60,041 nucleotides of DNA from Lachnospiraceae bacterium (lineage in GTDB: Bacteria; Bacillota; Clostridia; Lachnospirales; Lachnospiraceae). Below, piece by piece: positions 9,699 through 60,041 of the stretch; position 1 is the first letter of the stretch; every line of letters starts with the position of its first letter. The stretch covers positions 1 through 60,041 of the forward strand of contig JAQXVT010000011.1 in the NCBI GenBank assembly GCA_029225065.1, in the 5' to 3' direction. The notes beneath the pieces are model-generated. The model saw only the letters and a list, made by a program, of their open reading frames with translations. It searched no databases and was not told the origin of the DNA. The position numbers and the translations under genes are program-made.

Positions 9699-10292
9699 AT
9701 GGCAGTAAATAGAGTTCCGGTCCTGAAGAGATGCAGATCACTTGGTCTTGATCCGATTTATTTAGGAATTGATAAAAAATCCAACAGAGAATTAAAGCGC
9801 GCAAACCGTAAGGTAAGCGAGTATGGCCTTCAGCTTCGTGAAAAGCAGAAAGCAAAATTCATCTACGGCGTACTTGAGAAGCCGTTCCGTAACTACTACA
9901 AGAAAGCTGACAGAATGCAGGGACAGACAGGTGAGAACCTGATGACCATTCTGGAGAGCAGACTGGACAACGTAGTATTCCGTATGGGTCTTGCAAGAAC
10001 AAGAAAAGAGGCTCGTCAGATCGTAGATCACAAGCACGTTCTTGTAAACGGTAAGCAGGTAAACATCCCGTCCTACCTTGTTAAGGCTGGCGATGTAATC
10101 GAAATCAAAGAGAAGTGCAAAGGCTCTCAGAGATACAAAGACATTCTGGAAGTAACCGCAGGAAGACTGGTTCCGGAGTGGGTAGAAGTAGATCAGGAAG
10201 CACTGAAGGGAACTGTAAAAGAACTTCCGAAGAGAGAAGTAATCGATGTTCCGGTTAACGAAGTGCTTATCGTCGAGTTGTATTCTAAGTAA
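9699..10292 (+). CDS. rpsD: 30S ribosomal protein S4
   Basis: The 197-residue protein has the S4 N-terminal region, the [41 protein letters not shown]4 RNA-binding domain (about residues 86-125) and the C-terminal EWVEVD segment. S4 is a primary 16S rRNA binder that starts 30S assembly; in other bacteria it also represses its own synthesis. ATG 9699 follows GAGGGAGG. Confidence 0.97.
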
Positions 10293-48912: not shown

Positions 48913-48958
48913 GGAGCGCTGTGTCATAGAGATGAGTCTATGGCGTGGCGCTCCCTTT
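48913..48958 (+). terminator. Terminator after the CobW-like gene
   Basis: GGAGCGC (48913-48919) pairs with GCGCTCC (48948-48954) and CATAGA with TCTATG inside it, followed by CTTTTG. It separates the gene from the CRISPR locus. Confidence 0.8.
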
Positions 48959-49023: not shown

Positions 49024-49096
49024 GACAAAATTCCAAAATGAGACTATTAAGATGGTAATATTTTATCTTTACATTCCAAAATGTAGTTAGATTATA
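49024..49096 (-). ncRNA. CreR-like mini-crRNA with two degenerate CRISPR repeats
   Basis: On the - strand, the 30-nt segment 49067-49096 matches the CRISPR repeat at 21 of 30 positions and at 17 of its last 18 (ACATTTTGGAATGTAAAG), keeping the full 8-nt handle ATGTAAAG. After 13 bases, a second segment at 49024-49053 matches at 18 of 30 (core AATAG...CATTTTGGAAT). The TATAAT box 49091-49096 means transcription would begin inside the first copy. Processing by Cas6 would give a guide starting ATAAAATATTACCATC. That guide matches a site in the cas promoter. Known CreR/CreA RNAs in other CRISPR types have this repeat-guide-repeat form. It is not part of the array. Confidence 0.8.
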
Positions 49097-49119
49097 CTGG
49101 TTTTCTTTAAATATGTAAA
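49091..49119 (-). promoter_or_regulatory. Promoter of the mini-crRNA
   Basis: On the - strand TTTACA (49114-49119) and TATAAT (49091-49096) are exactly 17 bases apart. Start of transcription is expected near 49084-49085, within the first repeat-like segment. Confidence 0.75.
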
Positions 49120-49220: not shown

Positions 49221-49240
49221 CCTATAAAATATTATCATTT
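49221..49240 (+). promoter_or_regulatory. Predicted target of the mini-crRNA next to a CCT motif
   Basis: CCT (49221-49223) is followed by ATAAAATATTATCATTT (49224-49240). The guide predicted from the mini-crRNA reads ATAAAATATTACCATCT: 11 perfect seed bases and 15 of 17 overall. One mismatch is at position 12, which is flipped out in type I R-loops. A 35-nt R-loop would cover the -35 box of the cas promoter. Confidence 0.75.
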
Positions 49241-49244
49241 ACTA

Positions 49245-49284
49245 TTGCAGTCGGATACAGGATATGTTATAGTCAGACTATAAT
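49245..49284 (+). promoter_or_regulatory. Promoter of the cas operon with a palindromic -10 region
   Basis: TTGCAG (49245-49250) and TATAGT (49268-49273) are 17 bases apart, 40 bases before cas6. TATAGTCAGACTATA (49268-49282) is a perfect 15-bp palindrome over the -10, with a second TATAAT at 49279-49284. A repressor could bind it; AAAGGAGGAGG precedes the cas6 start. Confidence 0.75.
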
Positions 49285-49313: not shown

Positions 49314-50039
49314 ATGATTCAAATGGAATTGGATTTTCAGTTGGAGAAGCCTGAATTTCCAGTGGAGTATGATCGCCTGATCATCAGCTTCATTAAGGCT
49401 TCGCTACAAGAATATTCTCCGGAGCTACTGGAGCAGCTGTATACGAAGCAGGCATCTGTGATAAAGCCATACTGCTGGGCCTGCCATCTGCCTGGCGCAA
49501 AATTTTCCGATGGAAAGATTCTTTTAATAGAGAAACGTTTCAAATTATACTTTTGTGACGCAGATTTGGCACAAAACATTCATTTTTTTAATGCATTTAC
49601 AACGATGAAAAGAAAAGAATATCCGGTTAAAGGCGGAAACAGGATGTGGCTTTGCGGAGTAAAGTTTCGAAGGCATTCAGAAATTGAAGATTCGGAAATC
49701 ATTGTGAAAATGCAGAGTACGCTTCTGGTAAGAAGGCATAATGCAGAGAATAATACGGATATTTATTATACGTGTGAGGATGCAGAATTTTCAGAAGTAG
49801 TAAAAGAAAATATAAGAACAATGCAGCAGAAACAAAAGCTGACATATCGATTGGATGACTTTCAGATTTACCCGATCAAGGCAAAGAAAGTGGTGACAAA
49901 GGTGTTTGGTCGTCCGACAAATGCAAGCATCGGGATATTTAAATTAGTTGGTTCGGCAGAACTGTTAAATTATCTGTATACTGCAGGTTTAGGAGTCCGT
50001 CGATCGGAAGGACACGGAAAATTCGTGATTATAGGATAG
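49314..50039 (+). CDS. cas6: CRISPR RNA endoribonuclease Cas6
   Basis: The 241-residue RAMP protein has two ferredoxin-like halves and ends with the glycine-rich loop TAGLGVRRSEGHGKFVIIG characteristic of Cas6. It cuts pre-crRNA within each repeat, leaving an 8-nt 5' handle, here presumably ATGTAAAG. It is the first gene of the cas operon, as is usual for type I-B. ATG 49314 follows AAAGGAGGAGG. It would also be needed to process the mini-crRNA encoded upstream. Confidence 0.88.
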   Translation: MIQMELDFQLEKPEFPVEYDRLIISFIKASLQEYSPELLEQLYTKQASVIKPYCWACHLPGAKFSDGKILLIEKRFKLYFCDADLAQNIHFFNAFTTMKRKEYPVKGGNRMWLCGVKFRRHSEIEDSEIIVKMQSTLLVRRHNAENNTDIYYTCEDAEFSEVVKENIRTMQQKQKLTYRLDDFQIYPIKAKKVVTKVFGRPTNASIGIFKLVGSAELLNYLYTAGLGVRRSEGHGKFVIIG

Positions 50040-50054
50040 AAAGGAGGGAAAAAA

Positions 50055-51752
50055 GTGGAACGATATTTGATTACGCTGGGAGATTTTTTGAAAAATGCCG
50101 GAATTGCAGGCATGGCATATCTTTTGGAGCAGGGAGGAGCACAAAAGGGAGCAGAGTATGGAGTGACAGAGGATGGCCAGGCTCTGTGGCTGGATGCAGA
50201 GTTTGCAGATCAGGCGGACTGGACAGATCTGTATTTTAAAGCGTTTACAAGATACTTTGGCCCATCGACGGTATATCAGGGAATCACAGATCGAATCAAA
50301 GAATGTCTGGAAAAAATAGAAGACGGTAAATGGAAAGCAGAAGAATGGGAGAAAGACAGCTTGAAGTTTATCTCGAACAAATTGCTTTCCAATAGCTATC
50401 AGGCCGGTTATGAAAATATAAAAGGAAAGATTGAACATCCTGAAGTCTATGAAAAGCTGAAAAACAGTAAACTGAATGATCAAATGAATGTGGAAGAATT
50501 GCAGGAACGCCTGAAAGAACTGCAAAGTTTTATTGCTCAGCCACTGTGCCAGGAAACATTTATGATGAAAAGTATTGTGTATACGTATATCAATCGATTT
50601 TGGGATGGCAAATGCTTTCTGCTTAGAGCGAATGCAAAAAAGGATATGCGTGAACTATTCGAAAAAGAATTTTCCGAGCCGCTGAGAAACTATTGGAAAC
50701 GCGATAAAAAGAAAGACAAGGATCTGTGCATTGACTGTGCGATGCCGATAGGCGGTAAAGAGAAGGTGTCTATTGCTTTTGTGAAAGATGTATCAGATGA
50801 TCTGAGCAGAAAAAAGTCAGCGTTTTGGAACTGTAAGGTAGATGCTTTTCTGTGTCCTTCCTGTGCATTTGTCTATGCTCTGGCACCGCTTGGATTCCGC
50901 CTGTTTGCAAATAAGTTTCTTTTTATCAATATCAACCATGATGTGGAAAATCTTCTGGCAGCAAATGAAAAAGCAAGGAAAAGCAGTGTTGATGCACAGC
51001 GGGAGGAGGATGAGAAGTATTCCGCCTGGTTTGCAAAGGTAATGAATGTGATTTTGAAAGAAAAAACGAAATCCTTGAAAAATATTCATGTGATTCTGCG
51101 AGGAGTACAGGCAGATGACCATTATCTGCTGCGAATTATATCAGAAAAAACAGTGAAAGTATTAGAAAATGAACGGGCATACCATGCACTGCAGAAACTT
51201 GGCAAGCATCCTTATACAAGAGTAGGTAATGAGATACAAAATATTCATGAAATGGCGATTATGAATCTGTTTTTCGGCAGGAGTCAGTATGTGCTGTTGC
51301 AAAAACTGCTGCGTACAGCGCTTGAAAATGAAGGTGGATTTGGTGCACCTCTGATCTATGAGATACAGCTGCAGTCAGAACTTGTGTATAAAGAGGAAGA
51401 GGAAAGGAGACGGACGATGATGGATTGTACGATTATGAAAAGGTGCGGTGCAGACATGCGAAAAGCGATCTTGAAAGCAAAAGGAAGCGATTCTTCGGAA
51501 TGTTTGCGGGGAACGATGTATCAGATGCAAAATGCTCTGCGGGTGAAAAATCTGAATAAATACATGGACATTATTGGGCGTTTATATAGCTCTTATTCAC
51601 CGCGAAATGGGAAGGACGGAGGAGATCTTCTGATGCCAACCGGATTTATTAGAATGTTGGAAGACCCTGAAAAATTTACACAATATGGCTATGCATTTCT
51701 GTTTGGACTACAGGGAATGTACGAAGGAAAGAAGGAGGATGAAAGAGTATGA
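50055..51752 (+). CDS. cas8b: Type I-B Cascade large subunit Cas8b1 (Cst1)
   Basis: The 565-residue protein begins RYLITLGDFLKNAGIAGMAYLL, the Cst1-type start, and has a four-cysteine zinc site (CIDC 225-228 and CPSC 267-270), as in the Tneap Cas8b1 group. The large subunit recognises the PAM and recruits Cas3. Translation starts at GTG 50055 behind AAAGGAGGG. It overlaps cas7 by four bases. The middle and C-terminus (helical, NIHEMAIMNLFFGR) follow the family. Confidence 0.9.
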   Translation: MERYLITLGDFLKNAGIAGMAYLLEQGGAQKGAEYGVTEDGQALWLDAEFADQADWTDLYFKAFTRYFGPSTVYQGITDRIKECLEKIEDGKWKAEEWEKDSLKFISNKLLSNSYQAGYENIKGKIEHPEVYEKLKNSKLNDQMNVEELQERLKELQSFIAQPLCQETFMMKSIVYTYINRFWDGKCFLLRANAKKDMRELFEKEFSEPLRNYWKRDKKKDKDLCIDCAMPIGGKEKVSIAFVKDVSDDLSRKKSAFWNCKVDAFLCPSCAFVYALAPLGFRLFANKFLFININHDVENLLAANEKARKSSVDAQREEDEKYSAWFAKVMNVILKEKTKSLKNIHVILRGVQADDHYLLRIISEKTVKVLENERAYHALQKLGKHPYTRVGNEIQNIHEMAIMNLFFGRSQYVLLQKLLRTALENEGGFGAPLIYEIQLQSELVYKEEEERRRTMMDCTIMKRCGADMRKAILKAKGSDSSECLRGTMYQMQNALRVKNLNKYMDIIGRLYSSYSPRNGKDGGDLLMPTGFIRMLEDPEKFTQYGYAFLFGLQGMYEGKKEDERV

Positions 51753-52612
51753 AACGAGAAGGACTGACTTTTACGATGGTATTTCTGGCAGAGAGCGCCA
51801 ATTATGGCGAGGGGATCGGAAATATAACAACATTGAAGAAAATGACGAGAGGGAACTGCGAGCAGTATAGCTATATTTCCAGACAGGCAATGCGGTACAA
51901 CATTATTCAGCAGTTGAAGTGGGATAACACTCCGGTAGATGGGAAGAGTGGCGTGGTACAGTTTGCACCATCGGCGACAATCAGGGATTATCCAGAAATC
52001 GATCTGTTTGGATATATGAAAACAACGAAGGGAGATTCTGCGAGTACCAGGAGTGCAGTGGTTCGCCTGAGCAATGCGATTTCTCTGGAAGCATATCAGA
52101 GCGATCTGGAATTTTTGACAAATATGGGAATAGCAAAAAGAGGAAATATGGGAAATGCGATTGCTCAGAGTGAGGTGCAGCGGGCCTACTATGCGTATAC
52201 GATTGCAATTGATCTTGATCGGATCGGTGTGGATCAGGATGTGGAGATTTCACAGCAGGAAAAAGCAGATCGTGTTAAGCAGCTTCTGGATACGGTGCAT
52301 TATCTGTACCGGGATATCAAGGGCAGGCGGGAGAACCTAAGTCCGCTGTTTATTATCGGTGGTCGTTACAGCAGAAAGACCCCATTTTTTGAGAACCGAA
52401 TCCGAGTGGAAAATAACTGCTTGAATACGAATACACTTCTGGAACTTATGAAAGAAGATGACGCAATTATTGAACATACATGTGTAGGTGTGACGACAGA
52501 GGTTTTTGATAACGAAAAAGAAATAAAAGATAAACTGAAGGCAGAAACAGTTGGAGATGCATTCAAACACCTGAAAAAGGAAGTGGAAGAATACTATGGA
52601 GAGAGCAATTAG
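51749..52612 (+). CDS. cas7: Type I-B Cascade backbone protein Cas7 (Cst2/DevR)
   Basis: The 287-residue protein has the Cas7 start TFTMVFLAESANYGEGIGNI and the RQAMRYNIIQQL region, then GGRYSRKTPFFENRI. It belongs to the Cst2/DevR group and forms the helical backbone that holds the crRNA. It overlaps cas8b by four bases (ATGA) and cas5 by 17 bases, so the three are translationally coupled. Confidence 0.92.
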   Translation: MKREGLTFTMVFLAESANYGEGIGNITTLKKMTRGNCEQYSYISRQAMRYNIIQQLKWDNTPVDGKSGVVQFAPSATIRDYPEIDLFGYMKTTKGDSASTRSAVVRLSNAISLEAYQSDLEFLTNMGIAKRGNMGNAIAQSEVQRAYYAYTIAIDLDRIGVDQDVEISQQEKADRVKQLLDTVHYLYRDIKGRRENLSPLFIIGGRYSRKTPFFENRIRVENNCLNTNTLLELMKEDDAIIEHTCVGVTTEVFDNEKEIKDKLKAETVGDAFKHLKKEVEEYYGESN

Positions 52613-53336
52613 ACTCGACTGTTTTCAGAATTTAGCAAATTACAAAAAGCCGGCCAGCTTTATTATGAAGGAGACATTTCCATTGCCGCCTTATTCTACG
52701 GTGCTGGGTATGATTCATGCGGCTTGTGGGTTTACTGAATTTCACCCGATGCGTCTTTGCATTCAGGGAACCAACACGGGAATTATTTCGGAGGTATATA
52801 CGAGATACGCGTTTTCCGCAGGTGCAAAATATGAGGAAGGCCGTCATCAAATTTGTGTGGAAGACGGAGAGAAATACGGAATTTTTCGTGGAATTGCGAA
52901 TGCAGAGTTGGTTTGCGAAAATCGTATGGTGATACATATTATCCCGCAGGAAGCTGATTTTGCTCAGGTATTTCAGGCGCTGAAGTATCCACCGAGATAT
53001 CTGTCAATGGGACGGTATGAAGATTTGCTGGATGTGGAGCAGGTTCGAATTGTGGAAATTTTTGCAGCAGAAGAAGTGACGGCAAAAAGAGAACTGTATG
53101 TTCCGGTGGAAGCAAAAGATATCTATGCGGCGTTTGAAGTGGAAGAGCTGCCGCAGGGCTTTAGAAGTGTGGTTGTATATAACCTGACGAAGGAGTATGA
53201 AATCACACCGCAGGGACTGCGCAGATGGAAAAAAGATGGCGGGCGGATCAGGGCGTATTATTGTCCAAGAGGAAAGGCGTTTGAAGTGGCATATGTGGAT
53301 GAAGTTGAGCCGGAGGCAGCACTTGTATTTGCCTGA
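52596..53336 (+). CDS. cas5: Type I-B Cascade subunit Cas5
   Basis: The 246-residue RAMP protein has the Cas5 N-terminus RAIRLDCFQNLANYKKPASF and LPPYSTVLGMIHAACGF, typical of Cas5 Tneap forms. It caps the 5' handle of the crRNA in Cascade. It starts inside cas7. A perfect hairpin with a T-run follows nine bases after its stop, before cas3. Confidence 0.92.
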   Translation: MERAIRLDCFQNLANYKKPASFIMKETFPLPPYSTVLGMIHAACGFTEFHPMRLCIQGTNTGIISEVYTRYAFSAGAKYEEGRHQICVEDGEKYGIFRGIANAELVCENRMVIHIIPQEADFAQVFQALKYPPRYLSMGRYEDLLDVEQVRIVEIFAAEEVTAKRELYVPVEAKDIYAAFEVEELPQGFRSVVVYNLTKEYEITPQGLRRWKKDGGRIRAYYCPRGKAFEVAYVDEVEPEAALVFA

Positions 53337-53345
53337 ATGATATTT

Positions 53346-53373
53346 GAGCGGGATTGGAAGATCCCGCTCTTTT
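53346..53373 (+). terminator. Intrinsic terminator between cas5 and cas3
   Basis: GAGCGGGAT (53346-53354) pairs perfectly with ATCCCGCTC (53361-53369) around TGGAAG, followed by TTTT (53370-53373). It is inside the cas operon, 22 bases before the cas3 start, and could reduce expression of cas3 and the adaptation genes relative to Cascade. No second promoter is obvious between it and cas3. Confidence 0.8.
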
Positions 53374-53394
53374 AGAAGAAAGAGTAGGAAATAC

Positions 53395-55758
53395 ATGGAA
53401 TACTATGCAAAGTCAAAAACAAAAGAATTACTGGAAAAAGAAAAGAAAAAATTGATGGATCTGCTTTTAGATGCAGAGGAAATGCTGGCAGAAGAGCTTA
53501 CAGAATCAGAAAAAAAGGCAATTAAACAGAGCATTTACAAAATTGAGAGTGCAGTGTGTGAGAAACAGAAAACATTAAAAGAGCATGAAGAAGAAATTGT
53601 TACCTGTGCTGAAAAATTTTTTGAAGAATATGGAAGATATTTCACAGAAAAGGAACGAAAACTGGTCATTGAATCATGTCGCCTGCATGATCTTGGAAAA
53701 GTCAATTACATTTTTCAGGCGATAGTGTCATCTGAGCTAAAAAAAGAAAACCATGTGCAGCAGATTCCACATGGTTTTCTGAGTGGGCTTTCAATAAATA
53801 TGACTGACTTTCGGAAATTATCAGAATCTTTTTCAAAAGATGATTTCAGAGCAATGATTACAGCAATATATTATCATCATGACCGGGAAGATCATTATGA
53901 TGCAGATCAAATACAAAAATATGCGAAGGATTATTACCTGGATGCGCTGGAGCAGTATACAGGGAAAAAACTAGGAAAACTATATGTCAGTAACCTGGAT
54001 AAGTTGCTGTTCCGCAACAGGGGAACAGAGGACAGGCTTCCAATTCCTGAAAAAGAATGGGAAGAGTATCTTTTAATAAAAGGACTTTTAAACAAATTTG
54101 ATTATGCAGTGAGCGCCGGCTATGTGGAAGCAGAAATAGAGCCGGATCTGAAGAAAAAAGAACTGAAAAAGAAGGTGCAGGACTATCTGACTGATAAGGA
54201 ACTGCGTCCGGCACAAAAGTATATGATGGAGCATACAGAAGAAAACCTGATAGTGATTGCTCCTACTGGTTCGGGAAAGACAGAAGCAGCGTTGCTATGG
54301 CTGAATGGTGAAAAAGGTTTTTATACTCTTCCTCTTAAGGTATCCTCCAATGCGATTTATGATCGGATCAGACACCGATATGGGTATGAAAATGCGGCAT
54401 TGCTGCATTCAGACAGTATGTCCGTATATTTAAGTGAGGAGGGTATAGAGGCCGATGAAAAATATCACCGTGCAAAAATGCTGGCGTGGCCTGTGACGGT
54501 ATGCACCGTGGATCAGTTGCTCAAATTCAGTTACAGGGCACTTGGAACAGAAATTTTTGCGGCAACGTTAAAATATTCCAAACTAATTTTGGACGAGATA
54601 CAGTCTTATTCGCCGAAAATTATTGCGACGATATTGTATAGCCTTGTAACGATTCAGAGGCTTGGAGGAAAGTTTGCAATTGTTACAGCGACGTTCCCAC
54701 CAGTATTGACGCATTTCATGAAGAGGTATGGTTTATGCGAGGAAAAACAGTATCATAAAATTGATTTTTCAGAAGGGGTAACTCGGATTCGGCATAAAAT
54801 TCAGATTCGCTTTAGTGAAATGGATGTGGAAGAAATTCTGAAGCAAGGAAAAACCAGGAAAGTGCTTGTGATCTGTAACACCATTAGCAGCGCACAGAAA
54901 TTGTATGCACAGATGGCAGAGCGAACGGAAGAAGTTTGGCTTCTCCATTCCTGTTTTTTGCGCAAAGATCGAAGAAAGTTGGAAAATGAAATTCTGAAAT
55001 TTTCAGAGACTACAGGAAAAAACGGTATCTGGATATCTACACAAATCGTAGAAGCGAGTCTTGACATTGATTTTGATGTGCTGCATACCGAGATGTGTAC
55101 TGCAGACAGCCTGCTGCAGCGGCTTGGACGCTGCAATCGAAGCGGCAGATACATTCCGGAGGACGCAAATGTGATCGTGTATGTCAATCGAAATGGTATT
55201 GGAAAGAACGGTGTATATGATACGTTTTTGTATGAGCGATCTGTTAACTATCTGAAGAAATATGAAAATATCCAGTTTTCAGAGCAACTGAAGACCGAAT
55301 ATATGAATTATGTATATGCGACGGAAGAAATAAAAAACAGCGAATATTACAAAGAAATTGAAAAGACACTGAAAGAACTAGAAGAAATTCACTGCGCTGA
55401 GTATACAAAAAAGGAGGTGGATAGGCAATTCAGGGGAATTGAGAGTGTCATTGTTATGCCGGAACGCATTTATGAAAAGAATCGGGAATTTATCGACAAA
55501 AGTATAGAATTACTGTCTGTAGCGTATATGGGACAGGAGATAAAAACTATGATTCGAAAAAGACTGGAAGATCTTACAGTGAGTGTGAGCGGATTTAAAA
55601 GCAAAAAAATGCAGGCAGATCAGATGACAATCGGGCAGAGAGAACAGAAAAAAGTGACAAATATTCATCGGGCGAATGTGAAGTATGAGTTTGACGAGGA
55701 AGCCTGTCGTGGCCGTGGACTGGTGCTAAATGAGGAAGAAACGGACAATTTTTTTTGA
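53395..55758 (+). CDS. cas3: CRISPR helicase-nuclease Cas3
   Basis: The 787-residue protein has an N-terminal charged helical stretch, the HD nuclease domain (SCRLHDLGKVNYIFQ, and YYHHDRED near residue 162), and a superfamily 2 helicase: Walker A APTGSGKTEAAL near residue 292, LILDEIQSYS (Walker B), TATFPP, and the C-terminal QIVEASLDIDFDVL and QRLGRCNRSG motifs. It degrades target DNA after Cascade recruitment. ATG 53395 follows AGTAGGA; an in-frame ATG at 53344 lies within the terminator. It follows Cas5 by a terminator. Confidence 0.94.
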   Translation: MEYYAKSKTKELLEKEKKKLMDLLLDAEEMLAEELTESEKKAIKQSIYKIESAVCEKQKTLKEHEEEIVTCAEKFFEEYGRYFTEKERKLVIESCRLHDLGKVNYIFQAIVSSELKKENHVQQIPHGFLSGLSINMTDFRKLSESFSKDDFRAMITAIYYHHDREDHYDADQIQKYAKDYYLDALEQYTGKKLGKLYVSNLDKLLFRNRGTEDRLPIPEKEWEEYLLIKGLLNKFDYAVSAGYVEAEIEPDLKKKELKKKVQDYLTDKELRPAQKYMMEHTEENLIVIAPTGSGKTEAALLWLNGEKGFYTLPLKVSSNAIYDRIRHRYGYENAALLHSDSMSVYLSEEGIEADEKYHRAKMLAWPVTVCTVDQLLKFSYRALGTEIFAATLKYSKLILDEIQSYSPKIIATILYSLVTIQRLGGKFAIVTATFPPVLTHFMKRYGLCEEKQYHKIDFSEGVTRIRHKIQIRFSEMDVEEILKQGKTRKVLVICNTISSAQKLYAQMAERTEEVWLLHSCFLRKDRRKLENEILKFSETTGKNGIWISTQIVEASLDIDFDVLHTEMCTADSLLQRLGRCNRSGRYIPEDANVIVYVNRNGIGKNGVYDTFLYERSVNYLKKYENIQFSEQLKTEYMNYVYATEEIKNSEYYKEIEKTLKELEEIHCAEYTKKEVDRQFRGIESVIVMPERIYEKNREFIDKSIELLSVAYMGQEIKTMIRKRLEDLTVSVSGFKSKKMQADQMTIGQREQKKVTNIHRANVKYEFDEEACRGRGLVLNEEETDNFF

Positions 55759-55772
55759 AAATAAATAGTGAA

Positions 55773-55800
55773 CGGTGATTGTGAGCATCTACTTTACTCG
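55773..55800 (+). repeat. Copy 9 of the dispersed small palindromic repeat
   Basis: GGTGATTGTGAGCATCTACT followed by TTACTC, between cas3 and cas4; a weaker copy of GCGGATTGTGAATATCCGC. It argues against starting cas4 at GTG 55768. Confidence 0.4.
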
Positions 55801-55833
55801 GAAGAATGCTTATATCCGACGGGAGGGAATGGC

Positions 55834-56328
55834 TTGAAAGGTAAAATAACAGGAGTAATGGTCTATTATTATTTTGTCTGCAAACGGAAACTTTGGTATT
55901 TTTGCCATGAGATCAACATGGAGGCAGAAAATGAAAATGTGCTACTTGGTAAACTGCTGGATGAGAACAGTTATCGGGAAAAAGAGAAGCACATCAATAT
56001 AGACAATGTAATTAATATTGATTTTATCAAGGAAAAGCACGAACTGCATGAGATAAAGAAAAGTAAAGCAGTAGAGGATGCCGGTTTGTGGCAGATGAAA
56101 TATTACCTCTACTATATGCAGGAGCGGGGAGTGAAGGAACTGACCGGAGAAATCGATTATCCGCTTTTGAAGAAGAAAGTTTCGGTTGAATTATCAGAAG
56201 AAGACTGTAACAAAATAAAAGAGATTTCAAAGGAGATTATAGAAATTCAAAATACGTCCAGCGTTCCGGCGATGAAAAAACAGGGAATATGTAAAAAATG
56301 TGCCTATTTTGATTTATGCTTTATTTAG
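55834..56328 (+). CDS. cas4: CRISPR adaptation exonuclease Cas4
   Basis: The 164-residue protein has the Cas4 layout: ITGVMVYYYFVCKRKLWYFC with a first cysteine, HEIKKSKAVED with the RecB-family E-x-K, and the C-terminal CKKCAYFDLC that completes a [4Fe-4S] site. It helps select PAM-containing prespacers. The start is taken as TTG 55834 behind GGGAGGG; the longer frame from GTG 55768 would read through a dispersed repeat. It is followed by cas1 after 36 bases. Confidence 0.9.
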   Translation: MKGKITGVMVYYYFVCKRKLWYFCHEINMEAENENVLLGKLLDENSYREKEKHINIDNVINIDFIKEKHELHEIKKSKAVEDAGLWQMKYYLYYMQERGVKELTGEIDYPLLKKKVSVELSEEDCNKIKEISKEIIEIQNTSSVPAMKKQGICKKCAYFDLCFI

Positions 56329-56364
56329 CCGAGTCAGACAAAAGGATATCAGGAAGGTGATAGA

Positions 56365-57357
56365 GTGAAACAAAGTTTTTACGTATATAATAATGGGGAT
56401 TTAAAACGAAAAGACAATACGCTGCAATTTACAAGCTATGATGGCCTAAAAAGAGATATTCCAATCGAACGGATCGAGGATATTTATGTAATGTCCGAGA
56501 TGACGTTTAACACAACGTTTTTAAGCTACATTTCACAATATGGAATTCCAATCCATTTTTTTAACTATTATAGTTTTTATACCGGAAGTTTTTACCCGAG
56601 GGAAAGTCTGTTGGCGGGGAATCTCCTGGTAAAACAGGTGGAACATTACACGAATAATGTCAAGCGGCTTACAATTGCGCAGAAATTAATCGATGCAGCA
56701 GCAGATAATATCTACCGAAATCTTCGCTATTATAATGGCCGAGGAAAGAAGGTTGAGGCAAATATGCACGAAATTGATGAATTGCGCAAAAAAATATTGA
56801 AAACAGCTTCCGTTGAAGAACTGATGGGAATAGAAGGAAATATTCGGAAACAATACTATGCGGCATGGAACGAAATTATAAATCAGGAAATTCAGTTTGA
56901 GAAGAGAGTCATGCATCCACCCGACAATATGATTAATTCTCTGATTTCTTTTGTGAATTCACTTATTTATTCGAAGGTATTAGGCGAGATTTATCATACA
57001 CAGCTAAATCCTACAATTAGCTATCTGCATGAACCGGGATTTCGTCGTTATTCGCTGAGCCTGGATATTGCAGAGATATTTAAGCCGCTGATCGGCGATC
57101 GATTAATTTTTACATTGCTGAATCGAAATCAGATCAATGAAAACAGCTTTACAGAAGAATTAAATTTTCTTCATCTAAAAAAGGAAGCCTCGAAACTAAT
57201 CGTAAATGAATTTGAGGCCAGAATGAAGAAAACGATCATGCACAAGGAATTAGGCAGACAGGTATCCTACCAGTACTTGATGCGCCTGGAGGCTTACAAG
57301 TTAATTAAGCACTTAATTGGCGAAAAAGAATATGAGGGATTCAGAATCTGGTGGTGA
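56365..57357 (+). CDS. cas1: CRISPR integrase Cas1
   Basis: The 330-residue protein has the type I-B Cas1 pattern: QSFYVYNNGDLKRKDNTLQF, a beta-rich N-terminal domain and the helical catalytic domain with SLISFVNSLIYSKVLGEI, TQLNPTISYLHEPGFRRYSLSLDIAEIFKPLIGDR. Metal ligands are the glutamate of NEIINQE-type helices, the histidine of YLHEPG and the D/E of LDIAEIF. It inserts new spacers together with Cas2. GTG 56365 is the start, with GGAAGGTG nearby. It is separated from cas2 by 31 bases. Confidence 0.94.
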   Translation: MKQSFYVYNNGDLKRKDNTLQFTSYDGLKRDIPIERIEDIYVMSEMTFNTTFLSYISQYGIPIHFFNYYSFYTGSFYPRESLLAGNLLVKQVEHYTNNVKRLTIAQKLIDAAADNIYRNLRYYNGRGKKVEANMHEIDELRKKILKTASVEELMGIEGNIRKQYYAAWNEIINQEIQFEKRVMHPPDNMINSLISFVNSLIYSKVLGEIYHTQLNPTISYLHEPGFRRYSLSLDIAEIFKPLIGDRLIFTLLNRNQINENSFTEELNFLHLKKEASKLIVNEFEARMKKTIMHKELGRQVSYQYLMRLEAYKLIKHLIGEKEYEGFRIWW

Positions 57358-57388
57358 TGGGCGAAGCGGTTTTGACAGGGGGAAAATA

Positions 57389-57667
57389 ATGTATGTAATT
57401 TTGGTATATGATATTTGTCTGAAAGGAAATGGCGCAAGACGTCTTTCACGCGTGTTTAAGACATGCAAAAAATATTTGCATCATATTCAGGATTCTGTTT
57501 TTGAAGGCGAACTATCAAAAGTTCAGTTGTTGCAGTTGCAGCAGGAATTGAAAAAAACAGTGGATCAGGAACTTGACTCGGTCATCATCTTTAAAAGCAG
57601 GCAAGAAAAATGGCTGGACAAAGAATTTTGGGGAAAATCCGATGACGCAACAGATTTTTTACTCTGA
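57389..57667 (+). CDS. cas2: CRISPR adaptation protein Cas2
   Basis: The 92-residue protein begins MYVILVYDICLKGNGARRLS with the conserved Asp of the beta-alpha-beta fold, followed by KYLHHIQDSVFEGELSKVQL and FKSRQEKWLDKEFWGK. It forms the Cas1-Cas2 integrase. ATG 57389 follows AGGGGGA. The CRISPR leader begins directly after it. Confidence 0.94.
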   Translation: MYVILVYDICLKGNGARRLSRVFKTCKKYLHHIQDSVFEGELSKVQLLQLQQELKKTVDQELDSVIIFKSRQEKWLDKEFWGKSDDATDFLL

Positions 57668-57856: not shown

Positions 57857-59997
57857 GTTTAAATAGAAACATATTGGAATGTAAAGGAAAGACATACGCG
57901 CGCGCGGTCAATCGGCGCGTTGTTTAAATAGAAACATATTGGAATGTAAAGAACGTAGGCTATTCTCAGGCATACCGGAATCAGCAGTTTAAATAGAAAC
58001 ATATTGGAATGTAAAGGCAGTACATCCGCTTCTACGGTGACGGAGGCAGTGCTTGTTTAAATAGAAACATATTGGAATGTAAAGTAAATCCAGATTCGCT
58101 TTCTCCGAAAATGAGATCAGTTTAAATAGAAACATATTGGAATGTAAAGTTTTTAATCCTCCTTAAATAAATCCTCAAATGTTGTGTTTAAATAGAAACA
58201 TATTGGAATGTAAAGGGGCGGGGATCATGCGTATCGTGTCCTGGATGTACGTTTAAATAGAAACATATTGGAATGTAAAGTCGCCGAGAGGAAATCCTCC
58301 CGCTTTTAGCGCATACCAGTTTAAATAGAAACATATTGGAATGTAAAGGCTTTTTGTCTGCAATGGTCCACAGACTGTCCCCAGGTTTAAATAGAAACAT
58401 ATTGGAATGTAAAGGTATTACCCGTTCAATAATTCAAAACAGACTGTTGCGGTTTAAATAGAAACATATTGGAATGTAAAGATGAATGAGCTGGAAGATC
58501 TGGTAAAGTCCACTGTGTTTAAATAGAAACATATTGGAATGTAAAGATGTTTATATGATCGGCAATGAAAAGCGTTGGTTTGGTTTAAATAGAAACATAT
58601 TGGAATGTAAAGGACGGAGAAACATACCCACCCAGCGCATCAAGAGGGTTTAAATAGAAACATATTGGAATGTAAAGGTAAAATTTCTTTCTGATGAATT
58701 GAAGCGGCGTGGAGTTTAAATAGAAACATATTGGAATGTAAAGAACATACGGTTTATCATTTCTGCGCCCTGCTGTCGCGTTTAAATAGAAACATATTGG
58801 AATGTAAAGTTAGCTTTTTCAGCAGTTGTTCGTGCATTGCTTTAGTTTAAATAGAAACATATTGGAATGTAAAGGTCATCGCAATCAGCGCAGAACTGAA
58901 CATCATGGACGGTTTAAATAGAAACATATTGGAATGTAAAGGCGTGACACTGGAAGCAGTGCTCGCAGCAGAAAGAGTTTAAATAGAAACATATTGGAAT
59001 GTAAAGTTCGAAACAGGAAATTGCGATTGAATGCAATCTCTGGTTTAAATAGAAACATATTGGAATGTAAAGCACAGGCAGCAACAACAGGCAGACAGAG
59101 AGTTGCAGTTTAAATAGAAACATATTGGAATGTAAAGTACAATAACGCTCAGCATCATACAGGTGCAAAAATGTTTAAATAGAAACATATTGGAATGTAA
59201 AGAGCTGACCGAGCAGCCGGCAAAAACAACCGATACACAGGTTTAAATAGAAACATATTGGAATGTAAAGGTATAAAGGCGGAAACATGACGCTGAAGGA
59301 TGGAAAGTTTAAATAGAAACATATTGGAATGTAAAGTTAAGAAAGCCCTGAAATCCGGTTGCCTTGTTCTGTGTTTAAATAGAAACATATTGGAATGTAA
59401 AGCTTGTAGAGTACAACTTCGGAGCAGATGCGAACGTCGTTTAAATAGAAACATATTGGAATGTAAAGTCGAATGTTTTACATCAGGCAGAAGACCTGGT
59501 TGTAGTTTAAATAGAAACATATTGGAATGTAAAGATAAGAATACACCACCACATTATTATGAACGGTGGAGTTTAAATAGAAACATATTGGAATGTAAAG
59601 CAGGTAAGTATGAACCATACAAGGACGCGGAAAGTAGTTTAAATAGAAACATATTGGAATGTAAAGCCAGGCGGATAACCTGTGTTTGCGTCGGTGTCAA
59701 CCGTTTAAATAGAAACATATTGGAATGTAAAGTTGAGTCCGTTTGACTTAAGCAGCCGCTGTAACAGGTTAAAATAGAAACATATTGGAATGTAAAGGTC
59801 AATCGTCAAGGCGTATACCGGGTGCGAAAGCGAGTTTAAATAGAAACATATTGGACTGTAAAGTACTATGAGGCGTTCGGAATTTCACAACGGCTTGACA
59901 GTTTAAATAGAAACATATTGGAATGTAAATAATGGAGATCCGGATGCGGGAAACATGCCGAGAATTGGGTTAAATAGAAACATTTTGGAATGTAAAT
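57857..59997 (+). CRISPR. Type I-B CRISPR array, 33 repeats and 32 spacers
   Basis: The 30-bp repeat starts GTTTAAATAG, has AAACATATTG in the middle and ends GGAATGTAAAG. Twenty-nine copies are identical. The last four vary: one change at 59768, one at 59834, the last base G to T at 59901, and three changes at 59968. Spacers are 35-38 bp (most 35 or 36), none duplicated. The leader is at the cas2 side. No further repeat is seen in the final 44 bases. The 3' end resembles I-B repeats such as those of Clostridioides (GTATGTAAAT). Spacers were not matched to any source. Confidence 0.98.
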
Positions 59998-60041
59998 ACA
60001 TATCTTATAAATAAGGAAATTAGTGATTTTTCCAGGTGCGA

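Follow-up and report, generated by a model that had tools for sequence, protein, structure and literature searches.

The window, that is, the whole 60,041-nucleotide stretch analysed here (contig JAQXVT010000011.1 of the Lachnospiraceae assembly GCA_029225065.1), carries on its plus strand a type I-B cas operon (49314-57667) with a complete set of effector and adaptation genes: cas6 (49314-50039), a cas8b of the cas8b1/cst1-like kind (50055-51752), cas7 (51749-52612), cas5 (52596-53336), cas3 (53344-55758), cas4 (55768-56328), cas1 (56365-57357) and cas2 (57317-57667), with cas6 and cas5 scoring just under or under the curated cut-offs. Downstream of the operon, on the same strand, lies a CRISPR array (57857-59997) with the repeat GTTTAAATAGAAACATATTGGAATGTAAAG and spacers of 35-38 nt. 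The last, diverged array repeats occupy positions 59901-60041; another contig of this genome, C53, has about 141 bases of this window end at its own end (60 by script, the rest by eye), probably an assembly overlap. The host is probably a gut bacterium.

Beside the cas genes, a stand-alone mini-CRISPR of two repeats occupies 49024-49086 of the minus strand. Its first degenerate repeat, psi-R1 (49067-49086; CTACATTTTGGAATGTAAAG), contains the handle ATGTAAAG (49067-49074, read from 49074 to 49067), which is identical to the array handle; the final 17 bases of psi-R1 equal the end of the array repeat save for one base. The guide follows, its first 17 bases being ATAAAATATTACCATCT (49050-49066, read from 49066 to 49050), and the second degenerate repeat, psi-R2 (49024-49050), retains AATAG plus CATTTTGGAA and has lost the handle. 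Outside the array, a search of the genome for the 3' half of the array repeat at up to two mismatches returned psi-R1 alone, apart from two matches at the end of contig C53; these two resemble the overlapping tail of the window's array, since that contig end repeats the final 60 bases of the window. A promoter for the mini-crRNA, TTTACA-17-TATAAT, is predicted on the minus strand at 49091-49119 with 11 of 12 consensus bases, by a scan that gave 4 promoter-like sites versus 1.8 in shuffled sequences. A terminator-like hairpin (48913-48954), listed by the scan for the plus strand only, separates the mini-CRISPR from the GTPase gene upstream and could also terminate the minus-strand guide transcript. 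Folding of the guide transcript did not exceed that of shuffled sequences. The unit would yield, like CreR, a crRNA-like RNA from ectopic degenerate repeats outside the array.

The guide resembles a site close to cas6. On the plus strand, CCT (49221-49223), which fits the CCN motif derived from the array spacers of a relative, precedes the target ATAAAATATTATCATTT (49224-49240), and this target is identical to the guide at 15 of 17 bases, with positions 1-11 matched and mismatches at 12 and 16. An earlier note on this DNA had given the letters of guide and target, the target coordinates and the preceding CCT, with 11 seed matches and 15 of 17 in all, and our reading of the sequence confirms each of them. 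From the start of the guide to the cut expected in psi-R2 is 35 nt (cut site inferred from the handle), and the match stops at 17 of these; the full-length match of an ordinary spacer, by which Cas3 can act, is therefore not what this guide has. The note had also asked whether a better match exists elsewhere, and none does: in the 3.18 Mb genome, a search with the 17 bases at up to three mismatches returned 14 places, namely the guide itself (0 mismatches), the target (2) and twelve others (3 each). When CCN was required and positions 6 and 12 were left free, up to three mismatches gave six places, the target with 1, the guide copy with 2 and four with 3. The target is thus the best PAM-flanked match for the guide in the genome.

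We read the cas promoter as TTGCAG-17-TATAGT on the plus strand (-35 at 49245-49250, -10 at 49268-49273). In the window this is a weak prediction, missed by both the promoter scan and the nearby-promoter rule, and its -35 has three of the six consensus bases; TATAGT is the -10 chosen by the latter rule in the relatives L004, L005, L020, L038 and L042. Taken at that strength, the guide is partly complementary to its cognate cas promoter region behind a PAM, as CreR guides are. The note had proposed that the R-loop would run over the -35, and this part must be amended: the matched 17 bases finish at 49240, four bases short of TTGCAG, so that the R-loop would stop short, the paired part would abut the -35 and coverage of the -35 would fall to the body of Cascade alone. 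Among the 20 loci with a plus-strand target, the best nearby -35 begins 16-26 bases after the protospacer start in 11, a spacing rule for which no control was run and which points elsewhere in the other nine, the window included; in the window, TTGCAG begins 21 bases after the protospacer start. Cascade would accordingly lie against or on the -35.

The predicted, unmapped transcription start falls at about 49280 and is followed by a Shine-Dalgarno stretch and, about 33 nt on, by the cas6 ATG at 49314. This geometry bears on an addiction module of the CreTA kind, in which the guide would direct Cascade to silence a toxic small RNA with its promoter at the target, the cas genes being mere neighbours. 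CreA and CreR do share their anatomy, as a passage of PMC9458426 and review passages indicate, but a toxin RNA would not fit into about 33 nt, and cas6 directly follows the targeted promoter where CreTA would have a toxin RNA or gene. The locus, like CreR, shows no coupling to a toxin; we consider addiction very unlikely and rejected it.

The same layout recurs in relatives. Counting the window's own genome each time, Cas6 matches were obtained in 2 of 47 genomes at the genus level, 25 of 397 at the family level and 25 of 392 at the order level. A first Cas6 scan of the genome contigs found no relative, and an alignment query yielded a further 20 Cas6 loci from them. Before counting, we removed six loci that had fewer than 200 bases upstream, together with four duplicates; 55 non-redundant Cas6 loci were left, among them that of the window and some with distant Cas6 homologues. 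Across the upstream region, to a maximum of 600 bases, the 17 bases following each position were compared with any CC-preceded site there, and a handle was defined as ATGTAAA with at most one change. At a cut-off of 14/17, chosen after an exploratory scan, handle-preceded positions passed in 26 of 330 cases and other positions in 55 of 61,326 (Fisher 2.8e-39, kinship ignored); at least 15/17 was reached by 22 of the 61,326 positions without a preceding handle. The 26 passing positions fall one per locus, in 26 of the 55 loci including the window, and the sequences of guide and target differ among loci with the same layout. L035 adds one pair at longer range, with the guide about 1 kb upstream, and brings the count to 27/55; there the guide starts at about 8944 on the minus strand, the target lies 85 bases before cas6 at 10001, the unit comprises both repeats, with a TATAAT box ahead of it, and the mismatches among the first 20 bases are at 6, 12 and 18. 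A class-level set of 29 loci, taken from the best matches only (43 of 391 genomes had a match, own genome counted), was scored later by the same rule: 7 of 209 handle positions passed versus 25 of 33,141 others, giving seven positive loci from five families, three of which (L087, L088 and L090) belong to one genus. No CreR was detected by these scans in 28 of the 55 loci and 22 of the 29 class-level loci; the negatives include L028, L033, L034, L037 and L047, whose Cas6 proteins are 49-54% identical, and L013 reaches 13/17, under the cut-off.

The guide units are shorter than array units. The middle of the repeat, looked for after the guide, scored 12-16 of 18 in the 26 loci and at least 13 in 23 of them, compared with 20 of 852 control stretches of equal length at 13/18 or more. 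From the guide start to the cut expected from the handle, the units measure 35-56 nt, the window's being the shortest, versus 57-60 nt for an array unit. In the relatives, as in the window, psi-R2 is mostly without a handle, and no second guide would therefore be expected from it.

The earlier note had named co-variation of guide and target in relatives as a check, and the outcome favours the loop that it proposed. When each of the 26 guides was placed on the 54 other loci, 5 of 1404 pairings fitted, four of them within L038/L042 or L040/L043 and the fifth being the L005 guide on L043. Array spacers from seven loci, used as guides, reached 14 in 1 of 195 cases (a true array spacer of L043). 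L038 and L042 have the same guide, and their targets conserve the first ten bases while diverging past position 14 and at the third PAM base. These comparisons support the view that guide and target change together between relatives and are not drifting apart.

Because the window's own spacers yielded no protospacer, the PAM was taken from a relative. Against phage records the window's array spacers gave weak or scattered matches (best E 0.7), and exact scans of viral contigs with 2 of its 28 spacers gave none; the arrays of L043 and L035 matched phage at E 0.2-0.8, and that of L030 gave no phage match. The array of L031, which has the same handle as the window, was more informative: 29 spacers were read, with matches down to E 4e-10, and in the 8 of 11 matching phage records that were used, eight distinct spacers matched gut phage contigs at 83% or more. 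The bases before 13 such matches were CCA in ten, CCG in two and CAA in one, and the L031 PAM, derived independently from array spacers, is CCN. One L031 spacer meets CAA in one of the phage contigs L079 and L084 and CCA in its relative, as if the PAM had been lost. For the I-B system of C. difficile, a passage of PMC8406132 gives the PAM as YCN, in line with the CCN of L031. The note had held that a PAM excluding CCT would tell against its loop, and on this point too the outcome is in its favour.

As CC was a condition of the main and class scans, separate runs were made in which it was dropped. Each of the 26 positive guides still had the same CC-preceded site as its best one (CC expected, 3.4%). 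Over all handle positions, 45 guides reached 14/17 and 26 of their best sites lay behind CC, as did 19 of 24 at 15/17; in the class set the figures were 7 of 13 at 14/17 and 5 of 7 at 15/17. The matches not behind CC (19 handle guides at 14/17 in the main set and 6 in the class set) may be explained by AT-rich sequence, which gives chance matches, or by a handle-like word standing by the target.

We found that the mismatches are placed regularly. The profile comprises 25 pairs, the window included; L042 was left out because its guide is common to L038, and L035, found later, was left out as well. Position 6 is mismatched in 15 of the 25 pairs and position 12 in 13, which amounts to 28 of 50 cells, against 20 of 375 for the remaining positions of 1-17 together (p 9e-18, kinship ignored). 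Beyond position 17 the matching ends, with mismatches in 19 of 25 pairs at position 18 and in 113 of 175 cells at 19-25. Choosing the sites by positions 1-5 and 7-11 alone gave the same site in 25 of 25 pairs, and the stop at 17 is therefore not a selection artefact. In the seven class-level pairs, scored by reading, positions 6 and 12 are mismatched in 7 of 14 cells and the rest of 1-17 in 6 of 105, all six at 16 or 17. The note's remark that the mismatched position 12 is one of the flipped-out bases consequently generalises, with a pile-up at both 6 and 12. In Cascade, each sixth base stays out of pairing. Judged from sequence, this spacing of six bases is characteristic of Cascade binding; in the I-B system of T. 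maritima, a passage of PMC13199841 states that a mismatch at position 6 was without effect on binding.

This pattern also decides against two readings without Cascade-guided repression. The pair could be a chance match or a relic, a decayed self-targeting spacer or local duplication without function, as the AT-rich region, the handle-less positions that pass the cut-off and the 19 guides with non-CC sites might suggest; a decayed spacer, however, would shed its matches evenly, whereas here unlike guides recur, their sites preceded by CC, their mismatches gathered at 6 and 12 and their pairing ending at 17, so that we hold this origin to be extremely improbable. Nor do we give appreciable credence to an antisense RNA pairing with the cas mRNA leader independently of Cascade. 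A small transcript from a predicted promoter would indeed adjoin the gene, but the guide reads as the plus strand and could not pair with a plus-strand mRNA, the six-base rhythm is meaningless for RNA-RNA pairing, and the mRNA is predicted to start downstream of the target, so that the RNA would have to act on DNA. Both readings were rejected on these points.

The segment 49024-49119 thus very probably encodes a CreR-type RNA, a cas-regulating crRNA-like RNA that would place Cascade on the cas promoter without attack by Cas3, and our data support the autorepression by Cascade that the earlier note had proposed. How such an RNA would be expressed, bind, repress and sense we infer as follows. 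The guide would be transcribed from its own promoter, starting at about psi-R1, and Cas6 cutting or trimming would give an RNA beginning with the normal 8-nt handle, by virtue of which it should load into Cascade like any crRNA. At the cas promoter the loaded complex would find CCT and the 17-bp site, pairing with the latter in three five-base segments, 1-5, 7-11 and 13-17; with nothing paired from 18 on, Cas3 would stay away and the complex would merely block RNA polymerase. In this way cas transcription would be lowered by free Cascade and would rise when immune crRNA is more abundant or when Cascade is removed by an anti-CRISPR. An ample supply of the defence machinery thus probably reduces its own production.

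How strongly such a guide would repress may be gauged from other I-B systems. In P. thermoglucosidasius, according to a passage of PMC10551041, guides of up to 26 nt repress without cleavage. In an H. hispanica strain without arrays, passages of PMC10989794 report that about 67% of the mRNA remained with a matched spacer of 16 nt and about 65% with one of 20 nt (44% in DF60), so that pairing over 17 nt may repress weakly. It is accordingly possible, though in our opinion doubtful, that the loop exists but that the match represses only in part, as some guides of 16-20 nt do in H. hispanica, and serves to dampen cas expression and not to sense phage or anti-CRISPR; with a 20-nt spacer against a different site, however, 8.8% of the mRNA remained, and an 11-bp seed match is reported to suffice for CreA (both in passages of PMC10989794). 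Going beyond the window, we lean slightly towards a general form of CreR-type autorepression, in which the I-B cas operons of Clostridia would be repressed by a guide evolved to pair at just 1-5, 7-11 and 13-17, with 6 and 12 drifting freely, 18 and beyond unpaired, and guide and site rewritten together by lineage. If true, this natural 15-pair code would mark an evolved boundary between binding and cleavage.

CreR, the cas-regulating RNAs, were reportedly described by Liu et al. in 2023 (Cell Host Microbe 31:1481). Cas9 is autorepressed by a long form of tracrRNA, named tracr-L. As in the proposed loop of the window, an effector with a short natural guide match there represses its own promoter, but the system is of type II, with a single protein and no ectopic repeats; Cas9 auto-repression is also mentioned in a review passage. 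Passages of PMC12737573, PMC13131331 and PMC12948488 present CreR as RNAs resembling crRNAs, through which Cascade or Cas12a can repress the cas promoter, and as sensors of crRNA abundance and anti-CRISPRs, and one review among them places CreR in types I-B, I-E and V-A. As far as these review passages go, CreR resembles the window in a crRNA-like RNA outside the array, a partial match to the cas promoter and freedom from a toxin, whereas the guide, target and repeats of the window belong to a clostridial I-B system. The haloarchaeal I-B CreTA/CreA, in a passage of PMC9458426, likewise has a psi-R1 that keeps the Cas5-binding handle, a psi-R2 that loses it and a partial guide match, which represses transcription in CreTA and would do so in the window; the window differs in having no toxin RNA, in a target that would drive cas6 and in pairing to 17 rather than over an 11-bp seed. 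The best reading is that the window holds another putative CreR, the principle of self-repression being already known. Among the matches listed from the open-licence literature, we did not find the clostridial set, the 5+5+5 pairing code or the 6/12 pattern in natural guides. If the reading is true, Cascade-guided self-repression would be frequent in Clostridia; the 34 natural guide-target pairs (27 of 55 plus 7 of 29 loci, not all independent) would show what extent of pairing allows Cascade to bind without recruiting Cas3; phages with anti-CRISPRs would be predicted to raise cas expression in these commensals; and ready-made short guides would be at hand for gene control via native I-B systems.

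Some loci depart from the common layout. L033 has a pair resembling psi-R1 and psi-R2 upstream of cas6, and its guide had no CC-preceded match of 12/17 or more across the 12.5 kb locus. In L020, the guide unit is antisense to the leader, with the predicted cas promoter on one side of it and cas6, about 90 bases from the guide, on the other. In L043 and L039, the identity between guide and target is unusually long, extending to 20/20 and 19/20 bases, respectively.
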